From NCBI RefSeq assembly GCF_032302195.1, contig NZ_CP135275.1, forward strand, positions 558,001 to 622,000: a DNA stretch of 64,000 nucleotides, in the 5' to 3' direction. Source of the DNA: Paenibacillus sp. MMS20-IR301 (GTDB lineage: Bacteria > Bacillota > Bacilli > Paenibacillales > Paenibacillaceae). Positions within the stretch are counted from its first letter, which is position 1. Each line of letters starts with the position of its first letter. The notes below the pieces were generated by a model that did no database searches, was not told the origin of the DNA, and saw only the letters and a list, made by a program, of their open reading frames with translations. This document shows, in pieces, positions 7,777-58,703 of the stretch. The position numbers and the translations under genes are program-made.

Positions 7777-9012
7777 ATGCAAAATCCTCAATCACCGGGT
7801 ATTCCCCGGCTATGGACGGGAAGCTTCATCACACTGCTGTGCATCAGCTCATTGACCAGCATAGCAATGAATATGCAGATGGTTACCCTGCCCCTCTACA
7901 TCGTGCAAACCGGGGGCGGCCCGTCTTCCGCCGGGATGATGATGGGTGCCTTCACAATTGCAGCCCTGCTGTTCCGCCCTTACTTCGGGAGACTGGTGGA
8001 CCGGCTCGGCGGGAAGCTTATGCTTGTGGCCGGTACCGCTGTCTTTGCTGTTATTTCTTTAGCTTATTCGGTACTGCCCTGGGTCTGGGCGCTGCTGCTG
8101 GTCCGGTTCATCCATGGAGTGGGCTTCAGTGCCAGCTCCACAGCCTCGGGAACGATGCTCGCCCAGGTGGTCCCGCCACGCAGGCTGATGGAGGGAATCG
8201 GCCTGGCCGGACTGGCCCATACACTGGCCGTTGCTGTGGGTCCGGGGATCGGCCTGTTTTTTGCCCGGCAGCTGAACAATTATACCTTGCTATATGTAAT
8301 TACCGCTCTATTGGCTATGGCGGCGATAGCTGTTGCCTGGCGGCTGCGTGAGCCGGAGGGCAGCAGGCCAGCAGCGGCAGAGCCCATTGCTCCGCGCCGG
8401 AATAACCTGATTGAGCGAAGCGCCCTGCCGACCTCGGCGGTCATGTTCTTTATAGCGATGCCCCAGAGCAGCATTATTACCTTTCTGCCTGCTTACGGAC
8501 TTGAGCAAGGGGTAGGCTTGATCGGCCTGTTTTTTACCTTTAGCGCTATTTCCATGGTGGCAGCAAGAGTATTTTGCGGCAAAATCTCGGATAAACACGG
8601 CCCGGGCATCGTAATCATCCCAGGGTTTTTACTTGCGGTGGCTGCTCTCGCGTGGCTGCCGTTCATTGCCTCACTGGACGGCTTTATAGCTGCCGGAGTG
8701 CTGCACGGGCTGGGATTCGGAACAGTGCAGCCGATATTAAATGCGCTTACGATGCGGCGTTGTCCGTCGGAACGCAGAGGAGCGGGGAATGCGACTTTCT
8801 TCCTGTTTATTGATGGAGGTTATGCCGCGGGCTCCATTCTGATCGGTTTGTTATTGAGCTACACAAGTTATGCCGTGATGTATATGTGCTGCGCAGGGCT
8901 GATCGTCCTGGCCTTAGGCCTGTACATATATTTATTAGGAAGCAAGCGGGAACGGATAAGAGAGCGGAACCTCTCTCAGGAATGGATTCAGAACAGTGAA
9001 GGAGCGGATTAA
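7777..9012 (+). CDS. Major facilitator superfamily transporter
   Basis: A 411-residue integral membrane protein with about 12 hydrophobic segments. The loop between the second and third segments carries the MFS signature in the form GRLVDRLGGKLM, and a second-half copy appears as GKISDKHGPGIV. It begins seven bases after the glycosidase stop with only a weak ribosome site, so translation probably depends on the upstream gene. The substrate is unknown. In a catabolic operon it may export a product, such as a released acyl group or a non-metabolised sugar, or add a second import route. Confidence 0.88.
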   Translation: MQNPQSPGIPRLWTGSFITLLCISSLTSIAMNMQMVTLPLYIVQTGGGPSSAGMMMGAFTIAALLFRPYFGRLVDRLGGKLMLVAGTAVFAVISLAYSVLPWVWALLLVRFIHGVGFSASSTASGTMLAQVVPPRRLMEGIGLAGLAHTLAVAVGPGIGLFFARQLNNYTLLYVITALLAMAAIAVAWRLREPEGSRPAAAEPIAPRRNNLIERSALPTSAVMFFIAMPQSSIITFLPAYGLEQGVGLIGLFFTFSAISMVAARVFCGKISDKHGPGIVIIPGFLLAVAALAWLPFIASLDGFIAAGVLHGLGFGTVQPILNALTMRRCPSERRGAGNATFFLFIDGGYAAGSILIGLLLSYTSYAVMYMCCAGLIVLALGLYIYLLGSKRERIRERNLSQEWIQNSEGAD

Positions 9013-9015
9013 CCA

Positions 9016-10722
9016 ATGCAGCATTTAAAAGAAAAGCCGTTTTGTCTGAGCGATGAGGATATCTCGTGGGTGGCTGAAACGCTGGACAGTCTGACGGAAG
9101 AGGAAAAAATCGGACAATTATTCTGTCTGGTCAGCTACACAAGTGATGAGGATTACCTTGGCAGCCTGGCCCGGAAGTACAAAGCCGGCGGACTAATGTG
9201 CCGTCCGATGCCTGCAGCCGAGACGGTGGATACGGTGCGGATTTTACAGGAGAACTCCCGTATTCCTATGCTGATCGCGGCCAATCTGGAGCGTGGCGGA
9301 ACAGGGATTGCCGCTGAAGGCACTACCATTGGTTCAGTTATGCAGGTGGCAGCTACGGATGAGGAGGAAATGGCCTACAAGCTGGGAAGCGTCTGCGGAC
9401 AAGAGGGGGCAGCTGTAGGCTGTAACTGGGCTTTTGCCCCGATTATTGATATCGATTACAATTTCCGCAATCCGATTACCAATACCCGCACCTTCGGCTC
9501 AGACCCTGAGCGTGTCCGCCGGATGGGCGTCCAGTATATCAAGGGAGTGCAGGAGAATAATGTGGCCGCCTCGATCAAGCATTTTCCGGGGGATGGCATG
9601 GATGAGCGGGACCAGCATCTTGTAACCAGCATTAACTCCCTCACCTGCGAACAGTGGGATGCTACATATGGTGAGGTCTACAAATCCTGTATTGAAGCCG
9701 GAGCCATGACCGTCATGATCGGCCATATTATGCAGCCGGCCTACAGCCGCAGGCTGAATCCGGCGCTGAAGGATGAGGAGCTGCTGCCGGCGTCATTGTC
9801 GTACGAGCTGACGACTACTCTGCTTAAAGAGCGCCTCGGTTTCAACGGCCTGGTAGTTACAGATGCTTCCACCATGGCGGGGATGACCATTCCGATGAGC
9901 CGGGCACAGGCGGTTCCGCAGGCCATTGCGGCCGGCTGCGATATGTTTTTGTTCACGCGCAATCTGGAAGAAGACTATATGTATATGAAAAAAGGGATTG
10001 AGGACGGCATTATCACCCGTGAGCGTCTGGATGATGCGCTGGTCCGGATTCTTGGCCTGAAGGCTTCGCTCAGGCTGCACCGGAAGCAGGCTGCCGGTGA
10101 ATTGGTGCCTTCACTTGAAGCGGCGAAGGAAGTGCTGGGTGCGCCCCTGCACAAGGTATGGGCGGCTGAGTGTGCGGACAAAGCGGTTACACTGGTTAAG
10201 GAAGAAGCCGGTGTCCTTCCGGTTACTCCGAATAGATACCGCAGAATTCTATATTACGATATTGAAGCTGCTGAGGGTGTTGCCTATTCGGTCCGGACCG
10301 GGGTGGCGGACATGTTCCGGAAGCTGCTGGCCGGGGAAGGCTTCGAAGTAACTCAGTATCTACCTCCCCAGGGCCGGGAAGGAATGCTGGCCAAGCAGGA
10401 GGATATTACCGGACAGTATGATCTGATCATCTATCTTGCCAACATGTCTACTAAGAGCAATCAGACCGCTGTGCGGATTGAGTGGGCCCAGCCGATGGGA
10501 GCCAACGTTCCGGTCTATATCAACACAGTGCCGACTATATTCATCTCCGTGGAGAATCCCTACCATCTGCTGGATGTGCCGAGAGTCAAAACATTCATTA
10601 ACGCGTACAACTCAAATGATCATGTGCTAAAAGCGATAATCGACAAGCTGATGGGGCGTTCAGCCTTTACAGGAACGAGTCCGGTTGATCCTTTCTGCGG
10701 CATGTGGGATACCCGGCTGTAG
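9016..10722 (+). CDS. Glycoside hydrolase family 3 N-terminal domain protein
   Basis: A 568-residue cytoplasmic enzyme. The first ~350 residues are the GH3 barrel, with KHFPGDGMDERDQHLV giving an Asp199-His201 dyad like that of NagZ-type beta-N-acetylhexosaminidases, and VVTDASTMAG placing the probable nucleophile at Asp283. The residue after KHFPG is Asp where NagZ enzymes usually have His. The C-terminal ~200 residues form an alpha/beta sandwich (LVKEEAGVLPV onward). The Asp-His dyad supports an N-acetylhexosaminidase or glycoside-phosphorylase-like subgroup, but the substrate is open. A phosphorylase activity would fit the beta-phosphoglucomutase-like gene upstream. GGAG at 9001 lies 11 bases before the ATG. 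It is the last gene of the operon. Confidence 0.86.
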   Translation: MQHLKEKPFCLSDEDISWVAETLDSLTEEEKIGQLFCLVSYTSDEDYLGSLARKYKAGGLMCRPMPAAETVDTVRILQENSRIPMLIAANLERGGTGIAAEGTTIGSVMQVAATDEEEMAYKLGSVCGQEGAAVGCNWAFAPIIDIDYNFRNPITNTRTFGSDPERVRRMGVQYIKGVQENNVAASIKHFPGDGMDERDQHLVTSINSLTCEQWDATYGEVYKSCIEAGAMTVMIGHIMQPAYSRRLNPALKDEELLPASLSYELTTTLLKERLGFNGLVVTDASTMAGMTIPMSRAQAVPQAIAAGCDMFLFTRNLEEDYMYMKKGIEDGIITRERLDDALVRILGLKASLRLHRKQAAGELVPSLEAAKEVLGAPLHKVWAAECADKAVTLVKEEAGVLPVTPNRYRRILYYDIEAAEGVAYSVRTGVADMFRKLLAGEGFEVTQYLPPQGREGMLAKQEDITGQYDLIIYLANMSTKSNQTAVRIEWAQPMGANVPVYINTVPTIFISVENPYHLLDVPRVKTFINAYNSNDHVLKAIIDKLMGRSAFTGTSPVDPFCGMWDTRL

Positions 10723-45731: not shown

Positions 45732-45765
45732 GCTGGAATAAATTTGCTTTTCAGGGGGCTTGAAT

Positions 45766-46398
45766 ATGGAAATGAAGAGGGAAAGCATCATGGTGTGTGT
45801 ACATTACGGTCCCCACGGGCAGCGGCTGATCCAGAGGGGGAGCCGGCTGGCAGAGCTTCTCCATGCACCATTGATCGTGCTAACTGTAGATGCATTAGGA
45901 GACAATGAGTATAACCGGGAGAAGCAGCAGTACCTTTCAGGCTGGGAAACTCTGACGAAGGCTGCCGGAGGGGAATTTGTAATCCGCAATAGTAACGGTA
46001 AAAAAACCTCCGAGGTGATATCAAAGACGGCACAGGAGCGGGGGATTACACAGATCGTGATCGGCCAATCGGGCCAGACACTCTGGCAGGAGATTACCAA
46101 AGGGAATTTTATCAATGAGCTGCTGGAGCGGATCGGTCCGGTTGATCTTCACATCGTTGCTGTACAGCGGTATCCTGAGCTGCTTGAACAAACTCATGAG
46201 CAGGGGATTACTGCTTATCTGCTCCGCAGGAAGGACCGTTATGTGCTCTCCGATGAAGCTTCCGGGGATGAGGCGATGAAGGGCATTTTCTTCCGTGAGC
46301 TTCATACCGATTTTAACACTGGCCTGTTCAAAATTGTAACCAACGGCGAGGCGCAATATTTGCGGGTCGTGCAAAATGAGTGGGTTAAGCCGCAATAA
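45766..46398 (+). CDS. Stand-alone KdpD-type universal stress protein domain
   Basis: 210 residues; the ATG at 45766 follows AGGGGG, and a TTG at 45760 is less well spaced. The Usp fold at about 8-130 matches the KdpD subtype: the opening GPHGQRLIQRGSRLAELLHA, then QIVIGQSGQTLWQEI and PVDLHIVAV. The first two correspond to KdpD blocks. There is no kinase domain and no membrane segment. A ~75-residue C-terminal tail of unknown fold follows. The USP domain of Staphylococcus aureus KdpD binds c-di-AMP, so a nucleotide-sensing role next to the Mrp genes is plausible but unproven. It is the first gene of the operon, 37 bases before mrpA. Confidence 0.85.
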   Translation: MEMKRESIMVCVHYGPHGQRLIQRGSRLAELLHAPLIVLTVDALGDNEYNREKQQYLSGWETLTKAAGGEFVIRNSNGKKTSEVISKTAQERGITQIVIGQSGQTLWQEITKGNFINELLERIGPVDLHIVAVQRYPELLEQTHEQGITAYLLRRKDRYVLSDEASGDEAMKGIFFRELHTDFNTGLFKIVTNGEAQYLRVVQNEWVKPQ

Positions 46399-46435: not shown

Positions 46436-49294
46436 GTGCTTTACATTGTAATTTCACTTCCGTTCCTGCTGGCTCTGCTGCTGCTGCTGATCAGACAGAA
46501 CCTGCGCTTTCATCTGGGCTGGATCGTTCTGCCCTTGCCGGTACTTCTATTCTTCTACTTCCTGACCAAGATTCCGGCTATTCAGGCGGGAGATAATCTA
46601 ATCGTCAGTTTCCCATGGATGCCTTCCTTTGGGGTCGATTTCACACTGGTGCTGGACGGACTCAGTATGCTGTTCGTCCTGTTGATTACCGGGATGGGAA
46701 TGCTTGTGTTACTTTATTCCATTTATTATCTCGATAAGCAGACTGAGGGAATCCGCCAGTTCTATATTTATCTGCTGATGTTCATGGGGGCTATGCTGGG
46801 TGTGGTGCTGTCAGATAATCTGATGGTGCTGTACGGGTTCTGGGAGCTGACCAGCATTTCCTCATTCCTGCTCATCGCCTTCTGGTACCGCCGGGAAAGA
46901 TCCTCCTATGGGGCGCTGAAATCTATGCTGATTACGGTTTTTGGCGGTCTGGCCATGTTTGCCGGCTTTAATCTGCTGTATGTAATGAGCGGTACCTACA
47001 GTATCCGTGAAATTGTTGCACAGGCAGGGGCGCTGGCAGACCAGCCGATGCTTATCCCGGCCATGCTGCTTATTCTGCTGGGCGCGTTCACGAAATCGGC
47101 CCAATTCCCATTCCACATCTGGCTGCCGGATGCGATGGAAGCTCCGACACCTGTCAGCGCCTATCTTCATTCGGCCACGATGGTTAAAGCGGGACTCTAC
47201 CTGGTGGCCAGACTGACTCCCTTGTTTGCAGGGCAAGCTGCATGGTTCTGGATTGTATCCGTTACCGGATTGTTCACCCTGCTCTATGGGGCATTTAAAG
47301 CCATCCGGCAAACCGATCTCAAGGCTTTGCTCGCCTACTCTACCATAAGCCAGCTTGGGCTGATTATGAGCCTGCTCGGGCTCGGCTCGGCAGCGGCCTT
47401 TGTTACAGGTGAACAAGAAGCGGTGTTCTATTCGATGGCTACGGCAGCAGCGCTTTTTCATCTCATTAATCATGCTGTCTTTAAAGGCAGCTTGTTTATG
47501 GTCGTGGGTATCATTGACCACGAGACAGGTACCCGTGAGCTCCGTAAGCTGGGCGGTCTCATGTCGCTCATGCCAATTACCTTTTCAGTGGCCCTGATCG
47601 GAGCCTTCTCCATGGCAGGGCTGCCGCCGTTCAGCGGATTCCTCAGTAAAGAAATGTTCTTTACTTCCGTTCTGAATATCCGGGAGTTTGACCTCCTAAG
47701 CTCAGGGTCGTGGCTGCAGCTCTTTCCTGTAATCGCCTGGATCGCCAGTGTGTTTACCTTTGTATACAGTATGATTCTCGTCTTCAAAACCTTCGGGGGC
47801 AGGCTCCAGCAGAACAAGCTGGATAAGATTCCGCATGAAGCGCCGCTGGGGCTTTTACTGCCGCCGGTGATTCTAATCTCACTTGCTGTCCTGTTCGCCT
47901 TCTTCCCGGGGCTGGTTTCGGGCACACTGATTGAACCGGCGATGGCCTCGATCCACACCGGTCTGCTTGCGGCAGACGAATCCTTCGGGGTATCTATTCA
48001 TTTCTGGCATGGCTGGACACCGGAGATCTTCATGACGCTTGGCGTTGCGGCTGCAGGTATGCTGCTGTTCAAAGGCTATAGCCGGATGAAGGTGCTGGAC
48101 CGTGAGGCCAGCGGAAGAAATACGCTTAACCGTATTTATAACGGCTCGCTGCAATGGCTGGAACGTGGTTCCCGGCGGCTGACAGATACGTACATGACAG
48201 GCTCTAACCGCCATTATCTACTTTATATCTTCAGCTTTTTCATTATCGCTCTGCTGACCGTTCTGCTGGGGCAAAGAGGAATAAGCTTCGGGATGAATCA
48301 GTATGCGCCTTTATCCTTTTATGAGATAGCTGTTGTAGCAGTGATGCTCCTGGCTGCATTTGCCGTGCCTTTTGCTAAATCGCGTGTTAATGCGATCCTG
48401 TTCACCGGTGGTGCAGGGTACATGGTGACCCTGCTCTTTGTTCTCTTCCGGGCGCCTGATCTTGCGCTTACCCAAATGATTATTGAGACGGTGTCCGTTA
48501 TCCTGTTCCTGCTCTGCTTCCGCTATCTGCCGAAGCTGAAAGGGCAGAAGGAGCCGCTGCGCTTTAAGCTGCCAAATCTGGTCATCGCGCTTGGCGGCGG
48601 CATCACTATAACGCTGGTTGCGCTGGCAGCGATGGGCAGCAGTCCCTTTGAACCAATCTCCGAGTTCTTTTTGAAAGAAAGCTACAATTTGGCTGGAGGG
48701 AAGAATGTAGTCAACGTCATTCTGGTGGATTTCCGCGGATTTGATACCCTGTTCGAAATTATGGTGCTGGGGATTGCCTCACTGGCGATTTATGGTTTAA
48801 TTCATTTGAGGATGGAGCCTGATCTGCCACAGCCGGGAAAAGCCCGCAAGAGCAGTTCACTCCGCAGTAATGATGTGATTCTGCAGACGATGTCGAAGGG
48901 GATCGTTCTAATTATTATCGTATTTTCCTTCTATTTGTTCTTCGCCGGACATAACCATCCGGGCGGCGGTTTTATCGGGGCCTTAATGACATCTGCCGCG
49001 CTTGTACTGATGGCGGTTGCCTTCGGCATGGACCAGGTCCGCAAGGCCTTTCCGGTCAATTTCCGTTTACTCACTGCAGTAGGATTGTTAATAGCCATCC
49101 TTACAGCGTCGGGCTCGTTTTTGTTCGGGGCCCCTTTTCTGAGCCATGCTTTCGGCCACTTTGATCTGCCTGTGCTCGGGGATACGGAGCTGGCGACTGC
49201 CGTCCTGTTTGATCTGGGCGTGTACCTGGCCGTAATTGGTGTCACCATGAACATCATCTTATCGATCGGAGGGGATAAGTCTTGGAACTCTTAA
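46436..49294 (+). CDS. mrpA: Mrp Na+/H+ antiporter subunit A fused to subunit B
   Basis: 952 residues starting at a GTG behind GGAGGGG. The first ~600 residues are the NuoL-like proton-translocating part (EAPTPVSAYLHSATMVKAG is its hallmark, near residue 235). Residues ~600-800 are the MbhD/MbhE-like part of subunit A. Residues ~807-950 (SLRSNDVILQ, FFAGHNHPGGGFIGALMTS, FDLGVYLAVIGVTMNII) match subunit B, which is a separate ~143-residue gene in Bacillus subtilis. No separate mrpB exists here, so A and B are made as one chain. The complex exchanges cytoplasmic Na+ for H+ using the membrane potential. The stop overlaps the next start. Confidence 0.93.
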   Translation: MLYIVISLPFLLALLLLLIRQNLRFHLGWIVLPLPVLLFFYFLTKIPAIQAGDNLIVSFPWMPSFGVDFTLVLDGLSMLFVLLITGMGMLVLLYSIYYLDKQTEGIRQFYIYLLMFMGAMLGVVLSDNLMVLYGFWELTSISSFLLIAFWYRRERSSYGALKSMLITVFGGLAMFAGFNLLYVMSGTYSIREIVAQAGALADQPMLIPAMLLILLGAFTKSAQFPFHIWLPDAMEAPTPVSAYLHSATMVKAGLYLVARLTPLFAGQAAWFWIVSVTGLFTLLYGAFKAIRQTDLKALLAYSTISQLGLIMSLLGLGSAAAFVTGEQEAVFYSMATAAALFHLINHAVFKGSLFMVVGIIDHETGTRELRKLGGLMSLMPITFSVALIGAFSMAGLPPFSGFLSKEMFFTSVLNIREFDLLSSGSWLQLFPVIAWIASVFTFVYSMILVFKTFGGRLQQNKLDKIPHEAPLGLLLPPVILISLAVLFAFFPGLVSGTLIEPAMASIHTGLLAADESFGVSIHFWHGWTPEIFMTLGVAAAGMLLFKGYSRMKVLDREASGRNTLNRIYNGSLQWLERGSRRLTDTYMTGSNRHYLLYIFSFFIIALLTVLLGQRGISFGMNQYAPLSFYEIAVVAVMLLAAFAVPFAKSRVNAILFTGGAGYMVTLLFVLFRAPDLALTQMIIETVSVILFLLCFRYLPKLKGQKEPLRFKLPNLVIALGGGITITLVALAAMGSSPFEPISEFFLKESYNLAGGKNVVNVILVDFRGFDTLFEIMVLGIASLAIYGLIHLRMEPDLPQPGKARKSSSLRSNDVILQTMSKGIVLIIIVFSFYLFFAGHNHPGGGFIGALMTSAALVLMAVAFGMDQVRKAFPVNFRLLTAVGLLIAILTASGSFLFGAPFLSHAFGHFDLPVLGDTELATAVLFDLGVYLAVIGVTMNIILSIGGDKSWNS

Positions 49295-49617
49295 TGGCGG
49301 TAGCAGTCGGAATCCTTTTTACTATAGGCATTTACCTCATTCTGTCGAAGAGCCTGCTGCGCATTGTATTGGGTACATCCCTGATGACACACGGTGTCCA
49401 TCTGCTGCTTCTGACTATGGCCGGACTCAAAAAGGGTGCAGCGCCGGTCCTGGGTACAGGGGCGGATACTTATGTTGATCCGCTGCCGCAGGCGCTGATC
49501 CTGACCTCCATTGTCATCAGCTTTGGGGTCACGGCCTTCTTTTTCGTACTTGCATACCGATCCTATCAGGTGCTGGGGACGGATGAAATGGATAGTATCA
49601 AGGAGGAGAAGGAATGA
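49282..49617 (+). CDS. mrpC: Mrp Na+/H+ antiporter subunit C (NuoK-like)
   Basis: 111 residues with three membrane segments, the normal size for MrpC and NuoK. It starts at a TTG at 49282 inside the end of mrpA, with GGAGGGG at 49269-49275 as ribosome site. Conserved blocks are [37 protein letters not shown] near the third segment (the first part is the MrpC hallmark), and an acidic C-terminus. It joins subunits A and D in the membrane complex. The stop overlaps the mrpD start (ATGA). Confidence 0.94.
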
Positions 49618-51089
49618 GCAATTTATTAGTGCTGCCGATTCTGATTCCCCTGAGTACTGCGGTTATTCTGATTTTTTGTAAGGAGAAGATCCGGCTGCAG
49701 CGCGGAATCAGTGCTGTCAGCGGGTTACTGAATATACTCACTGCATTATTGCTGGTTTCACGCGTCCATACTGAGGGGATACAAACCTTACAGATGGGGG
49801 GCTGGATGCCGCCCTACGGCATCGTTTTTGTAGGAGATATGTTTGCTGTACTGCTGGTCATGATGGCTTCGCTTGTCAGCTTTGCAATACTGCTCTATTC
49901 ATTCAGCAGTATAGGAGAGAAGCGGGAGCGGTATTATTACTATACATTCTTCCACTTTTTGCTCGTAGGGGTGTATGGCTCCTTCCTTACCGGGGATATA
50001 TTTAATTTGTTTGTTTTCTTTGAAGTGATGCTGATTTCTTCCTATGCGCTCATTTCACTTGGAGGAACAAGGCTCCAGCTGCGGGAAACATCCAAATATC
50101 TGCTGATTAATATTGTATCCTCAACACTGTTTGTAGCAGCAGTAGCGTATCTCTATGCAGCAGTGGGGACGCTCAATATGGCTCATCTGTCCCAGCGTAT
50201 TGCTGAAGCCGGTCAGGGGGGCGTGCTGAACGTAATTGCGATGTTATTCTTAATCGTATTCTCTCTGAAGGCCGGACTGTTCCTGTTTTTCTGGCTGCCG
50301 GGCTCCTACAGCGCCCCCCCATTTGCGGTCAGAGCGTTGTTCGGTGCACTGCTGACCAAAGTAGGGCTGTATGCAATCATTCGTACATTTACACTGTTAT
50401 TTGTAAATGATACAGATTTCACACAACCATGGATTACCTGGATGGCGGTAGCCACCATGATCCTTGGCGGCCTGGGGGCAGTGGCTTACAACGATATTCC
50501 GCGTATTTTGAATTACAACGTTATTGTTAGTGTAGGTTTTGTAATCTTCGGACTTGCTGCCGGGACCCCCGGTTCACTAAACGGCGCGGTGTTCTATCTG
50601 CTGCACGATATGCTGGCAAAAGCCCTGATGTTCATGCTTGGCGGGATGATTATCACCGCTGCAGGGACAGAGCGCCTAGCTGGAATGGGCGGCATGATCA
50701 AAAAATATCCGCTCATCGGCTGGATGTTCTTTATCCTGACCCTTGCCTTGGTGGGCATTCCGCCGCTTAGCGGCTTTGCTGGTAAACTTCTGATTATCCG
50801 CGGGGCTCTGGATGCCGGCATGCTGGCGTTATCGCTCATTGGTCTGGGATCAAGCTTCCTCGTGCTGTATTCCTTAATCAAGATATTCAGGCTGGCATTC
50901 TGGGGCAATGAACCGGAGAAAGAACTGCCACAAGTCAGGTTGAAGCATTCTTCGGCCGTTGCCGCATGCCTTTTGGTGCTTGTAATCCTAATGGGGATAG
51001 GATCTGAGGCGATATATACCTATGTATCACAGGCTGGAGAAGTTCTGTCCTCGCCGGCACTGTATATTGAATCTGTGATGAAGGAGTAG
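49614..51089 (+). CDS. mrpD: Mrp Na+/H+ antiporter subunit D (NuoM/N-like)
   Basis: 491 residues with about 14 membrane segments, equal to the B. subtilis subunit (493). It has the antiporter-family core: LLVGVYGSFLTGDIFNLFVF, FFWLPGSYSAPPFAVRALFG, and LPGS where subunit A has LPDA. The ATG overlaps the stop of mrpC by four bases. It is the second proton-channel subunit of the complex. Confidence 0.95.
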   Translation: MSNLLVLPILIPLSTAVILIFCKEKIRLQRGISAVSGLLNILTALLLVSRVHTEGIQTLQMGGWMPPYGIVFVGDMFAVLLVMMASLVSFAILLYSFSSIGEKRERYYYYTFFHFLLVGVYGSFLTGDIFNLFVFFEVMLISSYALISLGGTRLQLRETSKYLLINIVSSTLFVAAVAYLYAAVGTLNMAHLSQRIAEAGQGGVLNVIAMLFLIVFSLKAGLFLFFWLPGSYSAPPFAVRALFGALLTKVGLYAIIRTFTLLFVNDTDFTQPWITWMAVATMILGGLGAVAYNDIPRILNYNVIVSVGFVIFGLAAGTPGSLNGAVFYLLHDMLAKALMFMLGGMIITAAGTERLAGMGGMIKKYPLIGWMFFILTLALVGIPPLSGFAGKLLIIRGALDAGMLALSLIGLGSSFLVLYSLIKIFRLAFWGNEPEKELPQVRLKHSSAVAACLLVLVILMGIGSEAIYTYVSQAGEVLSSPALYIESVMKE

Positions 51090-51095
51090 AGGGCT

Positions 51096-51575
51096 ATGAT
51101 GCTGCAGATCGTGCTTAACCTTTTGATTGCTTTCTTGTGGATGTTCATGAACAATAATATTTCCGGTGGAAGCTTCATTGTGGGGTATCTGCTTGGAATT
51201 GTGCTTTTACTTGTCATGCAGAAATCACGGAAACAGCCATTCTATCTTAGACGTTTATGGGCAGTGCTGAAACTTCTGCTGATCTTTGCCCGTGAGCTGA
51301 CAGTATCCAATTTTGTAGTGATTGGTCATATTATCCGGCCGAAACTCAACATACGCCCTGGTATTTTTGCTTATGAGACTGCCTTGACCTCGGCGTGGGA
51401 AGTTACCTTGCTGTCCTGCCTGATCTGCTTGACTCCGGGAACATTAACGCTGGATGTCTCAAGAGACGGAACAACCCTGTATATCCACGCTATTGATATT
51501 AAAGATGCAGAGGAGATGGCAAGCCAGATCCGAAAAAGTTTTGAGCAGACCATACTGGAGGTGAGCCGCGGATGA
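51096..51575 (+). CDS. mrpE: Mrp Na+/H+ antiporter subunit E
   Basis: 159 residues (158 in B. subtilis) with two or three N-terminal membrane segments and a soluble C-terminal part. Family blocks: ISGGSFIVGYLLGI, PGIFAYETALTSAWEVTLLS and LTPGTLTLDVS. It begins six bases after mrpD, and its stop overlaps the mrpF start. Subunit E is needed for complex activity in known Mrp systems. Confidence 0.94.
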   Translation: MMLQIVLNLLIAFLWMFMNNNISGGSFIVGYLLGIVLLLVMQKSRKQPFYLRRLWAVLKLLLIFARELTVSNFVVIGHIIRPKLNIRPGIFAYETALTSAWEVTLLSCLICLTPGTLTLDVSRDGTTLYIHAIDIKDAEEMASQIRKSFEQTILEVSRG

Positions 51576-51868
51576 ACCAGCCCATATTGACTGCTGCTCT
51601 GGTAATTCTGGGGCTGGCGCTGCTGGCCTGCGTATTCCGTCTTCTGGCAGGGCCGACCCGTTCAGACCGCGTTGCCGCCCTGGATACGATAGGAATTGAT
51701 GTTCTGGCAATGATTGCAGTGATCTGCATGCTGCTGGATACACAGGACTTTCTGGAAATCATTCTGGTAATCGGTATTCTTACCTTTATTGGGACAACAG
51801 CGCTGGCCAGATATATTGAACGCGGCATTGTGATGGAAGAGGAAGGAGGAGACAGAAATGACACTTGA
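51572..51868 (+). CDS. mrpF: Mrp Na+/H+ antiporter subunit F
   Basis: 98 residues with three membrane segments (94 in B. subtilis). The block RLLAGPTRSDRVAALDTIG is the MrpF signature. The ATG overlaps the previous stop by four bases, and the end overlaps mrpG by 11 bases, so translation is coupled throughout. Confidence 0.94.
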   Translation: MNQPILTAALVILGLALLACVFRLLAGPTRSDRVAALDTIGIDVLAMIAVICMLLDTQDFLEIILVIGILTFIGTTALARYIERGIVMEEEGGDRNDT

Positions 51869-52202
51869 ACTGATAGGTAAAATTCTGGTCCTGCTCGGCG
51901 CGATATTCTGCGGGCTCAGCGCATTTGGCTTGATCCGGTTGCCCGATGTGTATCTGCGCTCGCATGCGGCCACCAAAAGTGCAACATTCGGGGTGCTCTG
52001 TGTGCTGGGAGGTGCGTTTCTGTACTTTCTGTTCGCTGACGGTACCATCAGTATCAAGCTGCTGCTCGCGATTCTATTTGTCTTCATTACTTCTCCGGTG
52101 GCAGGTCATCTAAACGGGCGTGCTGCTTACCGTTCCGGGGTCCCTTTATGGAGGGGCAGCGTCCGGGATGATATGAAATCCTCTATCGAGAAGGATCAGT
52201 AA
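51858..52202 (+). CDS. mrpG: Mrp Na+/H+ antiporter subunit G
   Basis: 114 residues with three membrane segments. LIRLPDVYLRSHAATKSATF is the MrpG signature (the first 20 residues only are given), followed by FVFITSPVAGHLNGRAAYRSG. GGAAGGAGG inside mrpF precedes the ATG. It completes the operon in the order A-B fused, C, D, E, F, G. A c-di-AMP riboswitch begins 22 bases after its stop. Confidence 0.94.
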   Translation: MTLELIGKILVLLGAIFCGLSAFGLIRLPDVYLRSHAATKSATFGVLCVLGGAFLYFLFADGTISIKLLLAILFVFITSPVAGHLNGRAAYRSGVPLWRGSVRDDMKSSIEKDQ

Positions 52203-52223
52203 ATGCCTGCAAAATAATGATAA

Positions 52224-52340
52224 TTCGCTGAATCCCACATTGGGAGCGGGGGAACCAGGTATCTGGGGTGAATCTCGAATAATTCGAGCAGGGCTATGCT
52301 CACTTGAGCCCGAATCCGGCAGCTAACCTCGTAAGCGTAC
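52224..52340 (+). ncRNA. ydaO/yuaA-class c-di-AMP riboswitch
   Basis: The element carries the class landmarks in order: CGCTGAATCCC at the 5' side, GGGGGAACCA, TCTGGGGTGAATC, a hairpin CTCGAATAATTCGAG, AGGGC, then GCCCGAATCC, GGCAGCTAACCTCG and TAAGCG closing P1 with CGCT at 52226-52229. This matches Rfam RF00379 as I know it. Known members sense c-di-AMP and switch genes off, mostly K+ transporters and wall hydrolases. Here no terminator follows. The ribosome site AGAGGAG (52344-52350) starts seven bases after P1, so translational control of the hydrolase at 52360 is likely. It lies 22 bases after mrpG, probably within the same transcript. Confidence 0.96.
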
Positions 52341-52359
52341 AAGAGAGGAGTCATATGCA

Positions 52360-53175
52360 ATGCCGCATATTGAAGTTAATGGGACCACACTATACTATGA
52401 GGTGTCGGGCAGCGGTCTGCCGATTGTTTTTCTTCATGATCATTCGACCTCGCATCGTATGTTTGAGCCGCAGGCAGATTATTTCAGCAAACGGGCTAAA
52501 GTGATTCTGTTTGATCTGAGAGGGAACGGGCAGTCCGGTAAAATGGATGTGGAAATTAGCAGAATAGTGGACACGCAATGTGAGGATTTAAAAGGGTTGC
52601 TGGACGGGTTATCTATTACTAAGGCTGTAATCGTAGCTTGTTCGAGTGGAGCTGTTCTGGCGCACAAGTTTGCTTATCAGTACCCGGAGCGGGTTATGAA
52701 CATGGTTTTGGTAGACAGTTATTTTCATAGTAATTATACGGCGGCAGCCGGTAAGGTAAAGGAGTTTCTGGAAATCTGCGCATGGGCGGCCCACTATCTT
52801 CCGGCGGAAATGTTCATCCGTTCTTTGCGGATCACGTACAACAAATGGTATGAAGCTTACCGTATCCTGAGGGGTGAGCTATTGCATGAACGGACGACGG
52901 AGCTTATTAAGCAGCGCCTGGCCCTGCGGCACACGGATAGCTGCGGGTTCGCGCTGCGGCTGAAGATTCCTGTTCTTTGTGTATCAGGCAACCGGAATGA
53001 GTGGGTGCTGGAGCAAGTGAAGAAGGCGGCGGCCCGATATTCGTTTGCACGGTTAGCCATACTTGAGGATGCGATGTACCCGAGCCACCTGTGCCAGCCC
53101 GAGCACTTCAATAGGCTGCTGCTTGAGTTTTTACAAGACCAGCATGCATTCGAGCGATCGGCATCCGGGAAGTAG
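52360..53175 (+). CDS. Alpha/beta hydrolase controlled by the c-di-AMP riboswitch
   Basis: 271 residues, cytoplasmic. The oxyanion motif is VFLHDHSTSH (HD where many have HG), RGNGQSGK follows the third strand, and the nucleophile elbow is ACSSGA with Ser95 and Ala in place of the first Gly. The His is probably in MYPSHLCQPEHF. The ATG at 52360 lies nine bases after AGAGGAG; an ATG at 52354 is out of frame. The riboswitch at 52224-52340 is immediately upstream. The substrate is unknown. Its place after the Mrp genes and behind a c-di-AMP switch suggests a part in the osmotic or wall response rather than in sugar use. Confidence 0.87.
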   Translation: MPHIEVNGTTLYYEVSGSGLPIVFLHDHSTSHRMFEPQADYFSKRAKVILFDLRGNGQSGKMDVEISRIVDTQCEDLKGLLDGLSITKAVIVACSSGAVLAHKFAYQYPERVMNMVLVDSYFHSNYTAAAGKVKEFLEICAWAAHYLPAEMFIRSLRITYNKWYEAYRILRGELLHERTTELIKQRLALRHTDSCGFALRLKIPVLCVSGNRNEWVLEQVKKAAARYSFARLAILEDAMYPSHLCQPEHFNRLLLEFLQDQHAFERSASGK

Positions 53176-53202
53176 AGGATTGCCTGCTGGATTTCCCGTT
53201 CA

Positions 53203-53255
53203 GGGATCTTGGTCAAATAGGAGCCTAGCCTGTTTACTTTTTTGACAGAGATCCC
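53203..53255. other. Long imperfect hairpin between convergent genes
   Basis: GGGATCT and AGATCCC, extended by GGTCAAA/TTTGACA, form the outer stem around 25 bases with an internal T-run. It may act as a terminator for the hydrolase transcript, although no T-run follows the stem on either strand. Confidence 0.45.
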
Positions 53256-53316
53256 GCAATGATTGGTACATCTTCCGCAGGCGGCACACACTCCGTATTA
53301 CCCGCCTCACACCGCC

Positions 53317-54915
53317 TCACTCCGCATTGCTGCGGAACTGGTTGGGGGTGATACCTTTATACTTTTTGAACACCTGGTAGAAGTATTTCGTGTCATTGTA
53401 CCCGGACTGCAGCGCGATATCCTCAATCCGCATGCCCGGGTCCTTGAACAGCAGGCAGGCACGCTCGATGCGGACCTTGTGCAGATAGTCGGTGAAGCTG
53501 ATTTTGAGCTGCTGCTTGAACAGCAGGCTAAGGTAACCCGGGGTAATGTAGATTTCCCGCGCGACAATCTCGCGGTTGATGTCCTTCATATAGTTCTGCT
53601 CGATGTACAGCTTGGCCGATTCAAGCAGCTTGTTGCTGTTCTTCTTGGAGGACAAATGCTCGCTGACTCTGAGGGCAGTCTCCAGCAGCGACTGGAAAAT
53701 ATTATCCAGACTGGAGCGGGACAGGACATGAATCAGCTCGGTCAGATTTTGCCCGAACACCTTATTCACGTTGACGTTGTTCTCAATACACAGCTTGTAC
53801 AGGGCGAAGAACAGCGCGAAGCTCGATTTGATCACCTGGTCCCGCGACACGGTTTCGGGCTGCAGTGCCACATTAAACAGCGACAGCATCTCGGTGATTT
53901 CCTCGCTGGAGCCGCTGCGGACAGCCTTCAGCACCTCCTGCTCCTCATGCAGAGGATAGGAGGACTGGGAGGATTCATCATCGAACTCCCCGCTGAACTC
54001 GACGATTTTGCCGGTGCCGGTATAGTTCCGGGTGTTAAGCGCCTGTGAAGCCTCCAGGAAGGAACGCCGCAGATGCTGGATGTTATGATCCAGGCTGCCG
54101 ATTCCGGCGGAGACGGTGAACTTCAGATAGCTTGCGATATTATCCTGGATAATCCGGATATAGCCGCTTAACTCTTCATGATCGAGCAGATCATCGGTGT
54201 TCAGCACAAGGACTATATCATCCTGATGTTCAAAAGCGGTACATACGATAGACTCCGGCAGGGATTCCTCGCAGATATTTTTCAGGCCGTATTTGAGCAA
54301 CTCGGTGTCCTCATGCAGATACTTCTGGTGCAGCTGCTGGAAGTTGTCGATCCGCAGCAGAATCACCCCGTACATCATGTAGGGGAAGACCAGATTGTTC
54401 ATTTTCAGATTGGCCAGCAGCCGGGAGTAGGAGGAGCTTTCGGTCAGGATCAGCTGGCTTAATGTCTTCTCCTTCAAGAGCGGGAGGCTCTCACGGAAGC
54501 CCTGGCGCAGATGCTCAAGCGAAGTAATCTCCAGCTTCTCTGAACGGATCTGCTCCGTGATGGCGAGAATCGTATTCAGAATCTCCTGTCTCCGGCTCGG
54601 CTTCAGCAGATAGTTGCTGGCTCCGACCCGGATGGCTTTCTGGGCGTAGGCAAAATCATCATACCCGCTCATAATGACCGATTTGATATGCGGGTACTTC
54701 GCAGATACGGCAGAAATCAGCTCCAGCCCGTCCATCTGCGGCATGCGGATATCGGTCAGCATAATATCTACCGGATGGCTGCTTAAGATTTCCAGTGCCT
54801 CCTGTCCGTCCCGGGCTTCTGCCACAATGCTGATGCCGTGGGCCTGCCAGTCGATCAATGTTCTGATGCCCACCCGGGCCCGTTCCTCATCATCCACGAT
54901 AATCATATTAAACAT
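53317..54915 (-). CDS. Response regulator, YesN type (receiver plus AraC HTH)
   Basis: 532 residues. The receiver (1-120) starts MFNMIIVDDEERARVG, with the phospho-acceptor in IMLTDIRMPQMDG and Lys in YLLKPSRR. The AraC double helix-turn-helix is at about 430-530 (IYITPGYLSLLFKQQLK, QSGYNDTKYFYQVFKKYKG). AAGGAGG lies eight bases before the ATG at 54915. Its kinase is at 55315, but 399 non-coding bases separate the two, unlike the overlapping or closely linked pairs elsewhere in the window. It should regulate the importer and beta-galactosidase at 57351-62564. Confidence 0.94.
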   Translation of the reverse strand: MFNMIIVDDEERARVGIRTLIDWQAHGISIVAEARDGQEALEILSSHPVDIMLTDIRMPQMDGLELISAVSAKYPHIKSVIMSGYDDFAYAQKAIRVGASNYLLKPSRRQEILNTILAITEQIRSEKLEITSLEHLRQGFRESLPLLKEKTLSQLILTESSSYSRLLANLKMNNLVFPYMMYGVILLRIDNFQQLHQKYLHEDTELLKYGLKNICEESLPESIVCTAFEHQDDIVLVLNTDDLLDHEELSGYIRIIQDNIASYLKFTVSAGIGSLDHNIQHLRRSFLEASQALNTRNYTGTGKIVEFSGEFDDESSQSSYPLHEEQEVLKAVRSGSSEEITEMLSLFNVALQPETVSRDQVIKSSFALFFALYKLCIENNVNVNKVFGQNLTELIHVLSRSSLDNIFQSLLETALRVSEHLSSKKNSNKLLESAKLYIEQNYMKDINREIVAREIYITPGYLSLLFKQQLKISFTDYLHKVRIERACLLFKDPGMRIEDIALQSGYNDTKYFYQVFKKYKGITPNQFRSNAE

Positions 54916-55314
54916 GGCCGAAGCCTCCTTATAAGACGCATTTAAGTTTGAACGTTATGCTTTATTCGTCACTGCGGCGAACATTTGGACTTCCGGCCGC
55001 TAACGCTTCTGCAGGTTCCTGTGAGCTTGAGCTTTTGAATAGTAAGGAAGCAGAGAATTCATTCTATTGTACTTTGTACAGCAGATCACAGCAAAATCAG
55101 CCCTAAAATAGAATCTATTGTACTTTGTACACTCGTTTCATGAGTTTTTGGCATTCTAAGCTCATTTTCCTGAAAAGCATTGTACGAAATACAATAGAAT
55201 AGTTTTTTCGGGCATTTAGCAATGAATCAAATGTATATAATACAATTGCCCTATTGTTACAGGCGTTCTCCTATCGTTAATAAACTTAAGCTTCCAGTTC
55301 AAGCTATATAGTTG
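54916..55314. other. Non-coding region between kinase and regulator genes
   Basis: 399 bases without a gene. It contains three copies of a TTGTAC-type motif (55061-55200), an AT-rich segment with ATGTATATAATACAAT near 55230, and a GCGGCGAACATTTGGACTTC segment near 54972 that resembles other intergenic elements of this group. No terminator and no strong promoter were recognised. Confidence 0.5.
55061..55200. repeat. Three copies of an ATTCTATTGTAC-type motif, one inverted
   Basis: ATTCTATTGTACTTTGTACA at 55061-55080 and AATCTATTGTACTTTGTACA at 55112-55131 are direct copies. ATTGTACGAAATACAATAGA from 55179 is the inverted, diverged copy, whose complement reads TCTATTGTATTTCGTACAAT. Each contains a small palindrome (TTGTAC-TTT-GTACA or TTGTA-TTTCG-TACAA). 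Related motifs occur at 17936 and 17991. Confidence 0.65.
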
Positions 55315-57126
55315 TCACTGTTCTACCTCAATATCCATAATCGCCGGAATGACGATCTCCACGCGGGTGCCCTCTCCCGGGACACTCGAATAATTCAGGG
55401 TGAAATCGCCCTTATAGAAATGCTTCAGCCGGTCGTATACATTCTGGACCGCATACCCCCCGACATCCGGGGCTGTATACACATCCGATTCCTCGCGGTC
55501 CTTGAGAATATTCTGCAGCGTCTCGCTGCTCATCCCGCCCCCGTTATCCTCAATGACAAAGACAAGCTTGTCCCCGGTTAATTGCCCGCTGATGCTTACT
55601 CTGCCGCCGCCGCGTTTCTGCTCAATGCCGTGAACGAGTGCGTTCTCAATAAATGGCTGCAGGCTGAGCTTCAGAATAACGAAGGCTTCCAGCTCCGCAG
55701 GAATATCAATGACGAATTCGAGCGACTCCTTGAATCTCATTTTCTGCAGGGAGAGGTACAGCCCGATCAGTTCTTTCTCCTTGGCTACGCTGGTGAAGCT
55801 CTTCCCGCGGTTCAGGCTTAAGCGGAACAGCCGGGAGAGGTTGATCACCATCTCGCTGATCTTGTCCTGCCCGGAGGACTCCGCCTCCCAAAAAATCGTA
55901 TCCAGCATGTTATACAAAAAGTGGGGATTGATCTGCGACTGCAATGCTTTTAACTCTGCTTCCTGCTCCTTGAGCTTGAGCAGATAGGCATCGTCCACAA
56001 GCGCCTTGATGTTCGCCACCATGTTATTGTATCCCCGGCTCAGCTGGCCGATCTCATCCCAGTACTTGATGTTAACCTTCTCGTCGAATTGGCCGTTCTG
56101 GAAACGCCGCATTGACAGCAGCAGCGTCTTAATCGGTGCCGTCAGGAACGAGGAGAAAAACATCAGCAGGGGTATACTAAGCACCAGACTGGCCAGAATC
56201 ATCACCAGCACAGCGGATTTAATCGAGCTAAGCTCTTCCGTTAAGGAACTGAGCGGCACACTGTACAGCGTAATCCAGCCGTCCTCGTTGATATTGTAAT
56301 TCAGCAGCGTATCCCCGCCTTTAATATTGACGATGGTGGAGCCCGAGAGAACGCCTGCTGCCGCCTGCTTCAGCACGAAATCGACAGCTTTGGGACTATA
56401 GGTTTCTTTGCCTGCGGCCAGCAGCTGCTCCCCGTGCTCATTCAGAATCAGGATGCCATGGTCCTGATCATAGAGATTCGTCAGGTAAGTCTTGCGGATC
56501 GTCTCCAGATTGATGCCGACGAAGACAAAGCCGATCCGGTTGCCGTTGACAATATCGCGGATAATCCGGGTCATCCCCAGCTTCTCGTTGCGGTTGCTCT
56601 GGATGAACACATTATTCTCCCGGGTCAGCGGGAACCAGTAGGAGGCGCCGTTTAAGGCAACGGTCTCTTTATAGATTGCATTATTAATAATAGTATCGAA
56701 GCTGTTAGCCCCGCTGCTGTCATCGGTTGCGACTTGAAATATAGGTGTCGGGACGCTCCCGTAGAGGGACAGGTAATCGAAATTTCCGGTTACGAGCATC
56801 TGGTTCATCATTGAGGCGGTCGGCCCGTTATAGAATTGGTTCTCGATCTCTACAGAATCCGCAGTATTGTTTCTTAAGGTCTCCTGCACGACGGACGCCA
56901 GGCTGAAGACGGTAACCCAGTCGGCGATGGTCTTTTGCATCCGGGAGAGGTTGCTGTTGATCTGCTTCAGGACACTCTGGTTGGAATTGCTTACTTTATT
57001 GATAATCTGCTTCTTGGAGATCGAGTAGGAATACCCGCCAATGGAGAAGGTGACCGCTGTAATCAGCAGGAAAATAAGGATCGTTATCTTATATCGCAGA
57101 TTCAGATTCAAGTAGAAACGCAGCAT
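55315..57126 (-). CDS. Sensor histidine kinase, YesM type
   Basis: 603 residues. The ATG at 57126 (MLRFYLNLNLRYKITIL) has AAAGG upstream; the open frame back to 57240 has none. The first membrane segment is at 14-33, an extracellular sensor extends to about 300, and a second segment reads AVLVMILASLVLSIPLLMFF. HAMP follows, then QINPHFLYNMLDTI (His402) and the ATPase domain (IENALVHGIEQKRG, IEDNGGGMSSE). It is divergent from the importer/GH42 operon at 57351 and probably senses the sugar bound by its lipoprotein. The regulator at 53317 is the partner. Confidence 0.94.
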   Translation of the reverse strand: MLRFYLNLNLRYKITILIFLLITAVTFSIGGYSYSISKKQIINKVSNSNQSVLKQINSNLSRMQKTIADWVTVFSLASVVQETLRNNTADSVEIENQFYNGPTASMMNQMLVTGNFDYLSLYGSVPTPIFQVATDDSSGANSFDTIINNAIYKETVALNGASYWFPLTRENNVFIQSNRNEKLGMTRIIRDIVNGNRIGFVFVGINLETIRKTYLTNLYDQDHGILILNEHGEQLLAAGKETYSPKAVDFVLKQAAAGVLSGSTIVNIKGGDTLLNYNINEDGWITLYSVPLSSLTEELSSIKSAVLVMILASLVLSIPLLMFFSSFLTAPIKTLLLSMRRFQNGQFDEKVNIKYWDEIGQLSRGYNNMVANIKALVDDAYLLKLKEQEAELKALQSQINPHFLYNMLDTIFWEAESSGQDKISEMVINLSRLFRLSLNRGKSFTSVAKEKELIGLYLSLQKMRFKESLEFVIDIPAELEAFVILKLSLQPFIENALVHGIEQKRGGGRVSISGQLTGDKLVFVIEDNGGGMSSETLQNILKDREESDVYTAPDVGGYAVQNVYDRLKHFYKGDFTLNYSSVPGEGTRVEIVIPAIMDIEVEQ

Positions 57127-57350
57127 GGGATCACTGACCTTTGCCTTAAGAGTAGATAAGAATACAGCAGCTGTGCACTGTTCATTAATAGTATGCCAAA
57201 GTACCGGAGATAAACAAGGCTCACGGGAAGGAGTCGACAATTTTAAACTTTACTCTCTTTTTCTCTACTGACCGCCTTCAGGGATCTCTGTTACGATGTT
57301 GTCAGCACAAAGAAGCCAAGCCAGTTCAACATAAACTAGGGGGAGATTAC

Positions 57351-58703
57351 ATGGTTAAGAATACAAAGTCCAAACGGAATATAACGCTGATTGCGGCGCT
57401 TGCGGCAGTCTCAGTACTCAGTGCATGCGGCAATAATAACAGCGGCGGGAATGCAGCCGGCAGCAGCACAGACGGTAATGCGGCAGGAAGCGCAGGAGAG
57501 CAGGTTACCCTCCGTCTCTTCTCGAACCTCCCGGACCGTAAGTCCGGCCAGGGCCTGGCTGAGCAGATGGTCATCGACAATTATACGAAAGAGAATCCTA
57601 ATGTAAAAATCGAACTCGAAACGCTCGCCGAGGAGCCGTTCAAGAACAAGCTGAAAGCCTATATGGCTTCCAATGAGGCACTGGACATCACCATGGTACA
57701 CGGCGGAGCGGAACTGAACACACTGGTCCAGGCCGGTTATGTCAAAGAGCTTGATCCCGCAGAGTATGAGGGCGAAACTTACAACTTCCTGCCAGGCGTG
57801 TACAAGTCCTTCACCTTCAACGATAAATTGTATGGTCTTCCGCGCAACAGTGATTATGAGGTTATCTACTACAACAAAAAAATATTTGCCGACAATGGTG
57901 TGAATGTGCCGACCACCTATGCGGAGCTGCTGGATGCGGCTAAGCAATTCCGTGCCAAGGGCATTGAGCCGATGTCGGTTAACGGTAAAGATCTGTGGAG
58001 CTTCGCAGCCTTCTTCCAGGATCTTGTGATCCGGGTGAGCGGTGACCAGAGCCTGACACTGGATGCGGTAGACCAGAAGAAGAGCTTTACAACAGATGAA
58101 AGCTTCATTACAGCAGCTAAGCTGCTTGGGGAAGCAAGAGATGCTAAGCTGTTCCAGGAATCGTTCATGACGGCAGACTACGGTGCATCCCAGAACTTAT
58201 TCACGCAAGGAAGAGCGGCCATGTGGTACATGGGTTCATGGGAAGCCGGAATGGCTACCAATGAAAGCTTGTCCGAAGACTTCCGCAATAATGTGGCTGT
58301 ACTGAAATTCCCGGTTGTCGACGGCGGCAAGGGCAAGGATACAGACCTGCTGGCCTGGAACGGCGGCGGCTACTCGCTGGTCAGCAGCTCCAAGCATCCG
58401 GAAGAAGCCAAGAAGTTCTTCGATTACCTGATGAGAGCAGATCAGTGGGCCAAAACGGTCTGGGATACAGGCGCGGCAGTGCCTGCCCAGAAATATGAGC
58501 TTACCGGCAGTGAAAGCGGGCTGCAGCAACAGCTGACTGAAGTGCTTACCGGAGCGACCACTACAGCAGGGTCCCTTGGCCTTGATTATGGCACACCGAA
58601 GTTCAAAGATGACGGCCAGAATGCCTTCGGCAAGTTCTTCGCCGGCGGATCGACACCTGAAGAGCTGCTGGCAGAACTGCAAAAAGCAGCGGAATCTCAA
58701 TAA
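57351..58703 (+). CDS. Extracellular sugar-binding lipoprotein (family 1 solute-binding protein)
   Basis: A 450-residue lipoprotein with lipobox VLSAC (Cys26) and a Gly/Asn/Ser linker. The mature part is a type 1 binding protein (YGLPRNSDYEVIYYNKKIFA, the standard block, and AAMWYMGSWEAGMATNESL near residue 290). TAGGGGGAG before the ATG sets the start. It precedes two permeases and a GH42 enzyme, so a beta-galactoside or galacto-oligosaccharide is the probable ligand. Confidence 0.94.
   Translation: MVKNTKSKRNITLIAALAAVSVLSACGNNNSGGNAAGSSTDGNAAGSAGEQVTLRLFSNLPDRKSGQGLAEQMVIDNYTKENPNVKIELETLAEEPFKNKLKAYMASNEALDITMVHGGAELNTLVQAGYVKELDPAEYEGETYNFLPGVYKSFTFNDKLYGLPRNSDYEVIYYNKKIFADNGVNVPTTYAELLDAAKQFRAKGIEPMSVNGKDLWSFAAFFQDLVIRVSGDQSLTLDAVDQKKSFTTDESFITAAKLLGEARDAKLFQESFMTADYGASQNLFTQGRAAMWYMGSWEAGMATNESLSEDFRNNVAVLKFPVVDGGKGKDTDLLAWNGGGYSLVSSSKHPEEAKKFFDYLMRADQWAKTVWDTGAAVPAQKYELTGSESGLQQQLTEVLTGATTTAGSLGLDYGTPKFKDDGQNAFGKFFAGGSTPEELLAELQKAAESQ

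Follow-up and report, generated by a model that had tools for sequence, protein, structure and literature searches.

The known members of the c-di-AMP/K+ regulon are mostly transporters, osmolyte genes and wall hydrolases. In SAM-II and preQ1 riboswitches, a pseudoknot sequesters the Shine-Dalgarno (SD) sequence. The ydaO (kimA) riboswitch of B. subtilis shares its aptamer class with the element analysed here, but has a terminator platform and a transporter target. In B. thuringiensis, c-di-AMP controls a K+ transport operon through the kdpFABC riboswitch, and in the accessible part of the report this control is transcriptional (PMC6488665); the word 'hydrolase' is absent from its main text. 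For the nlpC gene of C. glutamicum, a c-di-AMP riboswitch acting on translation has been reported. In the accessible sections of that report it is of the RF00379 class, has no terminator and is assigned to translational control, with a CTCC-GGAG pseudoknot that its authors only hypothesise (PMC9960051). A pseudoknot has been described for the c-di-AMP aptamer class in the accessible parts of two reports (PMC5393176, PMC9337991); in the printed sequence of the crystallised aptamer, loop CUCCUUCG and tail CGAAGGAG are complementary on our own reading (PMC5393176). Doublet arrangements are also known for the class, according to the accessible text of PMC9481103.

We analysed a window of 64,000 nt, the whole stretch of Paenibacillus sp. 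MMS20-IR301 DNA considered here. A gene for an alpha/beta-hydrolase-fold protein (HYD) follows a c-di-AMP aptamer behind the genes of an Mrp antiporter. Like the nlpC element, the window element is of the RF00379 class and has no terminator; it precedes a different gene, and its SD sequence overlaps the aptamer's own pseudoknot strand, as in all 15 loci of its type. The features are as follows.

46436-52202, plus strand: Mrp Na+/H+ antiporter operon (NCBIfam subunit models, ORFs)
46436-49294, plus strand: MrpA-MrpB fusion (NCBIfam)
49282-49617, plus strand: MrpC (NCBIfam)
49614-51089, plus strand: MrpD (NCBIfam)
51096-51575, plus strand: MrpE (NCBIfam)
51572-51868, plus strand: MrpF (NCBIfam)
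51858-52202, plus strand: MrpG (NCBIfam)
52216-52352, plus strand: c-di-AMP riboswitch aptamer RF00379 (cmscan, 111 bits)
52226-52229, plus strand: P1 5' strand, paired with 52334-52337 (cmscan structure line)
52299-52306, plus strand: pseudoknot loop strand CUCACUUG, complementary to the 3' tail
52340-52347, plus strand: pseudoknot tail strand CAAGAGAG, complementary to the loop
52343-52350, plus strand: SD sequence GAGAGGAG (anti-SD match)
52360-53175, plus strand: HYD, 271 aa, alpha/beta-hydrolase fold with degenerate triad (S95, D119, N213, Y240, H243; ORF with ATG start, Pfam)

RF00379 was the sole gathering-threshold match in the whole window (52216-52352, plus strand, 111.0 bits, E 1.3e-25, cmscan; gathering cut-off 38 bits), and the match spans model positions 1-134, full length and not truncated. 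The preliminary description had called the element a nearly textbook ydaO-class aptamer and proposed an Infernal check with RF00379; the significant match bears this out, with a single blemish. At 52289 the window has C, where all 14 further aptamers with a short gap to the gene have U, and this could affect affinity. The mrpG stop codon (ending at 52202) lies 13 nt from the model start, and 7 nt separate the model end from the ATG of HYD. The ribosome site begins five nt past P1, in agreement with its earlier placement within seven bases of P1. The earlier reading that the element has no terminator also held: we found no intrinsic terminator of the ydaO-type transcriptional attenuator between aptamer and HYD, where the 7-nt gap is too small for one, and the two terminator-like patterns in 51800-53400 both lie within the HYD ORF at shuffle level. 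A simple consensus scan gave no promoter-like site from 51800 to the aptamer. Because there is neither a promoter-like site nor a credible terminator upstream of HYD, co-transcription with mrp is likely. In the accessible part of an RNA-seq study of P. riograndensis, in which strain SBR5 was transformed, one RF00379 leader appears among the mapped long 5' UTRs, before a 'cell wall-associated hydrolase' (PMC5670726), which agrees with a HYD switch inside a longer transcript without proving it. An out-of-frame ATG at 52355 precedes the HYD start by 5 nt and follows the SD sequence by 4 nt; it opens a short overlapping ORF.

The MrpA-MrpB fusion is one 952-aa protein in which the MrpB model matches residues 810-946, and a universal-stress-protein-like gene (45760-46398) stands ahead of mrp in the window and in several relatives. 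The gene 3' of HYD is convergent. By eye, 53317-58703 holds a convergent AraC-type response regulator and a sensor-kinase-like gene, then a sugar ABC transporter binding protein-like gene, all apparently unrelated to the HYD switch. RF00379 matched six times in this genome. The downstream genes are a permease (an AA_permease_2 match that we take to be KimA-like), a radical-SAM protein presumably resembling lysine 2,3-aminomutase, a G5/3D wall protein, two NlpC/P60-type proteins (one scanned) and HYD.

We searched 100 genomes of the genus, taking at least 40% identity as the ortholog threshold, and obtained 40 orthologs (window included) in 39 genomes. RF00379 lay directly upstream of 34 of the 40, window included. 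Conservation of the pairing in relatives had been named in advance as a refutation test, and the pairing passed it; together with the deeper linkage described below, it rules out a chance neighbourhood of aptamer and HYD. The 40 include a frameshifted ortholog (G064) and exclude a fragment of 120 residues (G089), a split gene whose riboswitch is still present (G079), a remnant copy with a riboswitch (G067), and matches below 40% identity or with partial coverage. A single-sequence scan of genome contigs recovered only 3 loci. RF00379 was not found in four scanned outgroup or distant paralogs (L073, L074, L076, L078).

Six orthologs have no aptamer: those of G029, G087, G064 and G077 and two copies in G095 (G029 is P. 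ihuae, G064 Paenibacillus sp. DMB5 and G041 P. phytohabitans). The G029 leader reads TTCGCTGAA, then CGAGGGGGCACATGTA, then ATG, and only a tail-like GATGAGAGGGGG is left in the mrp-linked G095 copy. In both, the aptamer seems to have been lost by deletion with the ribosome site kept. G067 (L048, about 8684-10422) has a second copy of the aptamer, behind which come a HYD remnant and then an open TrkH gene; it looks as though the switch had been handed over to the K+ transporter. We also observed a near-identical hairpin and T-run (CCGGAGGAGCCTGC...GCGGGCTCTTTTT) before aptamer-less HYD in two genomes (L040, about 8856-8890; L093), and a similar hairpin, inferred from translated text only, near TrkH in a third (L044, near 9796). 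At 11204-11257 of L072, a Paenibacillus genome matches the sRNA family SpF59 of Streptococcus (72.9 bits).

HYD relatives were examined for a conserved link to cation transport or to c-di-AMP control, as expected of a K+/Na+ homeostasis gene. We counted a member as linked if it had its own RF00379 element, even without a nearby transporter, or a cation-transport gene adjacent or in the same gene cluster; nine members with their own riboswitch had no wide map (G008, G016, G015, G036, G080, G021, G038, G058 and the intact G067 copy). By this measure, 65 of the 72 members examined were linked: 40/41 in the genus, 13/14 in the family outside the genus, 10/10 among new members from the order scan and 2/7 in the class outside the order, the genomes beyond the genus being drawn samples. 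The seven unlinked members are G063 (the 41st of the genus, 32% identity), G197 (family), G751, G644, G515, G557 and G496. Five matches outside the genus with 108-127 bits (G112, G166, G224, G284, G309) scored much like the outgroup genome G032 and stayed outside the count. Seven paralogs from the outgroup or distantly related (L073-L079) served as a control and gave no transport-reference match apart from weak kinase-type matches to the full KdpD query (L076, L077).

The linked settings contain Mrp, Kdp, KhtTU-like, KimA-like or TrkH genes. A full mrp operon stands upstream of HYD in 11 mapped loci, as in the window, and three mapped loci have an orphan mrpE setting. In L045, L050 and L052, an aptamer-less HYD lies behind an orphan mrpE, with a ClC-type gene within 6 kb upstream in each and an NhaP-type gene within 6 kb upstream in two. 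TrkH is found downstream of HYD in four intact cases and one remnant. The kdp settings show three gene orders: kdpABC-HYD-kdpD', kdpABC-kdpD'-HYD and HYD-kdpD-kdpE-kdpA-kdpB, where KdpD' matches the family 'KdpD-like non-kinase potassium sensor'. In two loci HYD is preceded by a TrkA_C protein and a CPA2 antiporter, a pair that we take to be KhtTU-like, and one locus has a KimA-like permease. Among the 19 kdp-linked loci, RF00379 lies upstream of kdpA on the same strand in 11 (seven by cmscan; G437, G360, G722 and G770 by coordinates), was not found there in six (G178, G176, G241, G208, G343 and G405, the last on a short contig), and two (G286, G297) were outside the scan. These loci recall the B. 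thuringiensis operon, in which c-di-AMP likewise controls K+ transport. The preliminary description had set HYD apart from ion transport in noting that known targets are mostly transporters. This separation did not survive the comparison: HYD directly follows mrp in the window, and its relatives occur in kdp, khtTU-like, KimA-like and TrkH contexts.

One reading of the linkage is that it reflects shared regulation only, HYD having an unrelated metabolic job. Consistent with this, no cation-transport reference match was found within 6 kb of HYD in the mapped loci that have a terminator between aptamer and gene (seven of the 12 of the tandem-aptamer clade and five of a 42%-identity group, G081, G069, G039, G044 and G057), and five of the seven members outside the order are unlinked. 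The separate placements in mrp, kdp (in three gene orders), khtTU-like, KimA-like and TrkH settings argue against it, and we consider it unlikely. Our searches of the open literature listed no paper tying a HYD-like protein to c-di-AMP or kdp; an earlier mention in the ydaO target lists of Block 2010 or Nelson 2013 is possible. HYD is the surprise of this locus, a widely linked protein of apparently degenerate hydrolase fold that would act in K+/Na+ homeostasis.

The fold itself is intact. HYD scored 59.8 bits against Pfam Abhydrolase_1 (PF00561), its AlphaFold2 model had a mean pLDDT of 86.1 and a pTM of 0.87, and the best Foldseek matches were esterases and an enol-lactonase (TM mostly 0.73-0.85); all three place it in the alpha/beta hydrolase superfamily. 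HYD shares this fold with the families of 3-oxoadipate enol-lactonase (2xua) and of aryl esterase (1va4) (TM 0.80-0.84) but has not kept the classical triad. Assignment to pcaD, haloalkane dehalogenase or another named enzyme was rejected, the best 25 of 27 NCBIfam matches being far below cut-off (for the lactonase model, 72.7 against 255.85).

We aligned residues in 58 family rows, out of the 72 members, and three outgroup rows, placing the classical His at Y240 by counting from the LCQP proline and by the alignment to 5egn. The classical Ser/Asp/His triad is absent from its usual places in HYD. None of the 58 family rows keeps the classical acid (Asn213 in the window), and one keeps the catalytic His (Tyr240 in the window), namely G220, which has Asp as nucleophile. 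The nucleophile is Ser in 46 rows (Ser95 in the window), Ala in seven, Asp in four and Gly in one; in row G240, the residue aligned with M239 is His. All three triad residues, Ser, Asp and His, are present in the three outgroup rows. Unlike the triad, D119 and C245 do not vary within the family (58/58), nor do Y160, W163, R178 and Q185 in the cap. With the classical triad lost throughout the 58 aligned family rows, catalysis is in doubt, and the pattern of a kept pocket and a lost triad suggests a binding protein. GID1-type receptors are dead hydrolases that bind a hormone. HYD may share their logic, fold and pocket being kept and the His lost.

A real hydrolase with a rearranged triad would give c-di-AMP an enzymatic output after all. 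Its residues would be Ser95, Asp119 after strand 6 and His243, three residues past the usual place. An acid after strand 6 occurs in other alpha/beta hydrolases and so has precedent there, the fold is sound by AlphaFold2 and Foldseek, and S95, D119 and H243 are kept in every row of the window's 31-row subclade. In the H243 column, however, the three outgroup rows, which have a classical triad, show Asn, and the other 27 of the 58 rows show Asn or Ser; 12 of these 27 have Ala, Asp or Gly as nucleophile. We regard this rearrangement as improbable. The 'unknown enzymatic output' of the preliminary description is thus not upheld as worded, given the missing triad and the linkage to cation transport. 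Instead of acting as a standard hydrolase, HYD would most likely bind a ligand and regulate cation transporters or partner them.

We next consider how the RNA could control HYD. The loop and 3' tail of the window aptamer can form the RF00379 pseudoknot with 7/8 pairs and one A-A mismatch. Without the mismatch, the longest run is 4 bp (CUUG with CAAG) and touches the SD sequence by one base; in the mismatch-tolerant helix, the tail strand and the SD sequence share 5 nt. The 9-mer 52343-52351, which lies 8 nt ahead of the start codon, has an anti-SD duplex of -12.3 kcal/mol. At each of the 15 short-gap loci, the aptamer tail gives the best anti-SD match from P1 to the start codon, 8-9 nt before the start, and the mismatch-tolerant pseudoknot strand overlaps the SD sequence; in G013 a competing helix, CUUUG with CAAAG, overlaps it less. 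Because loops differ in length, pairing was assessed by a swap test instead of a per-column covariation count. With 44 unique pattern-caught loops from all loci (kinship ignored, a few loops over-long), own loop-tail pairing was 8.10 compared to 7.17 for swapped pairs (sd 0.17, maximum 7.83), and 0/2000 swaps reached the own value. Examples of such loop/tail pairs are CUUUG/CAAAG, CCUGCA/UGCAGG and CCAUCU/GGAUGG, the last with one end pair G-U. In the short-gap loci alone the signal was modest (own 6.7 vs 6.1 off-diagonal, 11 distinct pairs), and 0/300 loop shuffles reached the observed mean pairing.

Two adjacent NlpC/P60 genes of this genome, each with RF00379 (G000 C1:5766299-5767466; loci L005, L006), have aptamer tails, GGAAGGAG and GGAAGGGG, that resemble a ribosome site and pair with the loop CCUUC. 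The pair looks like the HYD design with a different, compensated pseudoknot. As proposed here, the window element resembles SAM-II and preQ1 riboswitches in having its SD sequence inside a ligand-stabilised pseudoknot, whereas the aptamers and ligands are unrelated. The overlap of SD sequence and pseudoknot strand, together with the absence of a terminator in the gap, supports the earlier suggestion of probable translational control. The window RNA belongs to a known class, in which it is unremarkable. Its translational arrangement is uncommon, although it has a precedent, and is well supported by comparison with other loci. Judging from its sequence, the RNA is likely a translational OFF switch.

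The gap between aptamer and gene was measured at 36 direct-riboswitch loci, comprising 32 of the 34 genus loci (without G038 and G044) and four from elsewhere. Two platforms were observed. In 15 loci, the window included, the gap is 5-8 nt with no terminator; in the other 21 it is 80-187 nt and holds a hairpin followed by a T-run, 12 of these 21 having tandem aptamers. In a tree of 61 rows, which left out the short-gap G008, the 14 short-gap loci all fall in one 19-row clade (support 93/67, the SH-aLRT of 67 being weak). This clade also holds five aptamer-less rows (G029, two of G095, G087, G197), and its sister is a 12-row terminator-type clade (100/98). Its first branches, G013 and then G002 with four relatives, all stand behind a full mrp operon. 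The simplest reading would be a single platform change from terminator to SD capture, together with capture by mrp.

If control were at the level of transcription, say by Rho-dependent termination or by decay within the mrp-HYD transcript, the SD overlap would be incidental. Transcript-level effects are reported for Streptomyces (St-Onge et al., as cited in the accessible part of PMC9960051), and the GAGAGG tail is kept also where it is not an SD sequence. Against this, no intrinsic terminator fits the 7-nt gap, and 15 loci retain the short gap, compared to a long spacer in the 21 terminator loci, which leaves this mode of control with little probability. A translational ON switch, in which CCUC (52327-52330) pairs with the SD sequence until the ligand frees it, is very improbable: CCUC is complementary to GAGG of the window SD sequence, but every short-gap aptamer except that of the window (14 of 15) has CCCC instead, the related terminator-type loci resemble the usual OFF form of the class, and the c-di-AMP riboswitches described in the accessible parts of PMC6488665, PMC9960051 and PMC9337991 are OFF switches.

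On the best reading, HYD serves K+/Na+ homeostasis, has a degenerate hydrolase fold and is made at low c-di-AMP. At high c-di-AMP, we infer, the aptamer would bind its ligand and fold, and its 3' tail would pair with the loop of the GGGC hairpin. This loop-tail pseudoknot would hide part of the GAGAGGAG ribosome site of HYD. c-di-AMP falls under K+ limitation or osmotic stress. Such a drop would release the ribosome site, and HYD would be made. HYD would be the last cistron behind the mrp genes, and therefore c-di-AMP could tune HYD without cutting the antiporter mRNA. We consider the proposal as a whole, a c-di-AMP translational OFF switch joined to a non-classical hydrolase-fold protein of K+/Na+ homeostasis, to be probable. 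More tentatively, and with somewhat less than even confidence, we propose that HYD founds an unrecognised K+/Na+-homeostasis family of the Bacilli. Its fold, catalytically dead, would offer cation transporters a receptor or adaptor in the conserved cap pocket, its level would be set by c-di-AMP through the riboswitch of the operon or its own, and one change from terminator to SD capture would have accompanied its move behind mrp.

If true, the c-di-AMP/K+ regulon would gain a protein without classical catalytic residues, and HYD would be a testable candidate for K+ transporter supervision in Paenibacillus and its relatives. The locus would also provide an evolutionary case of one riboswitch class shifting from transcription termination to translation control, to which the two apparent natural aptamer deletions with the ribosome site kept would add.
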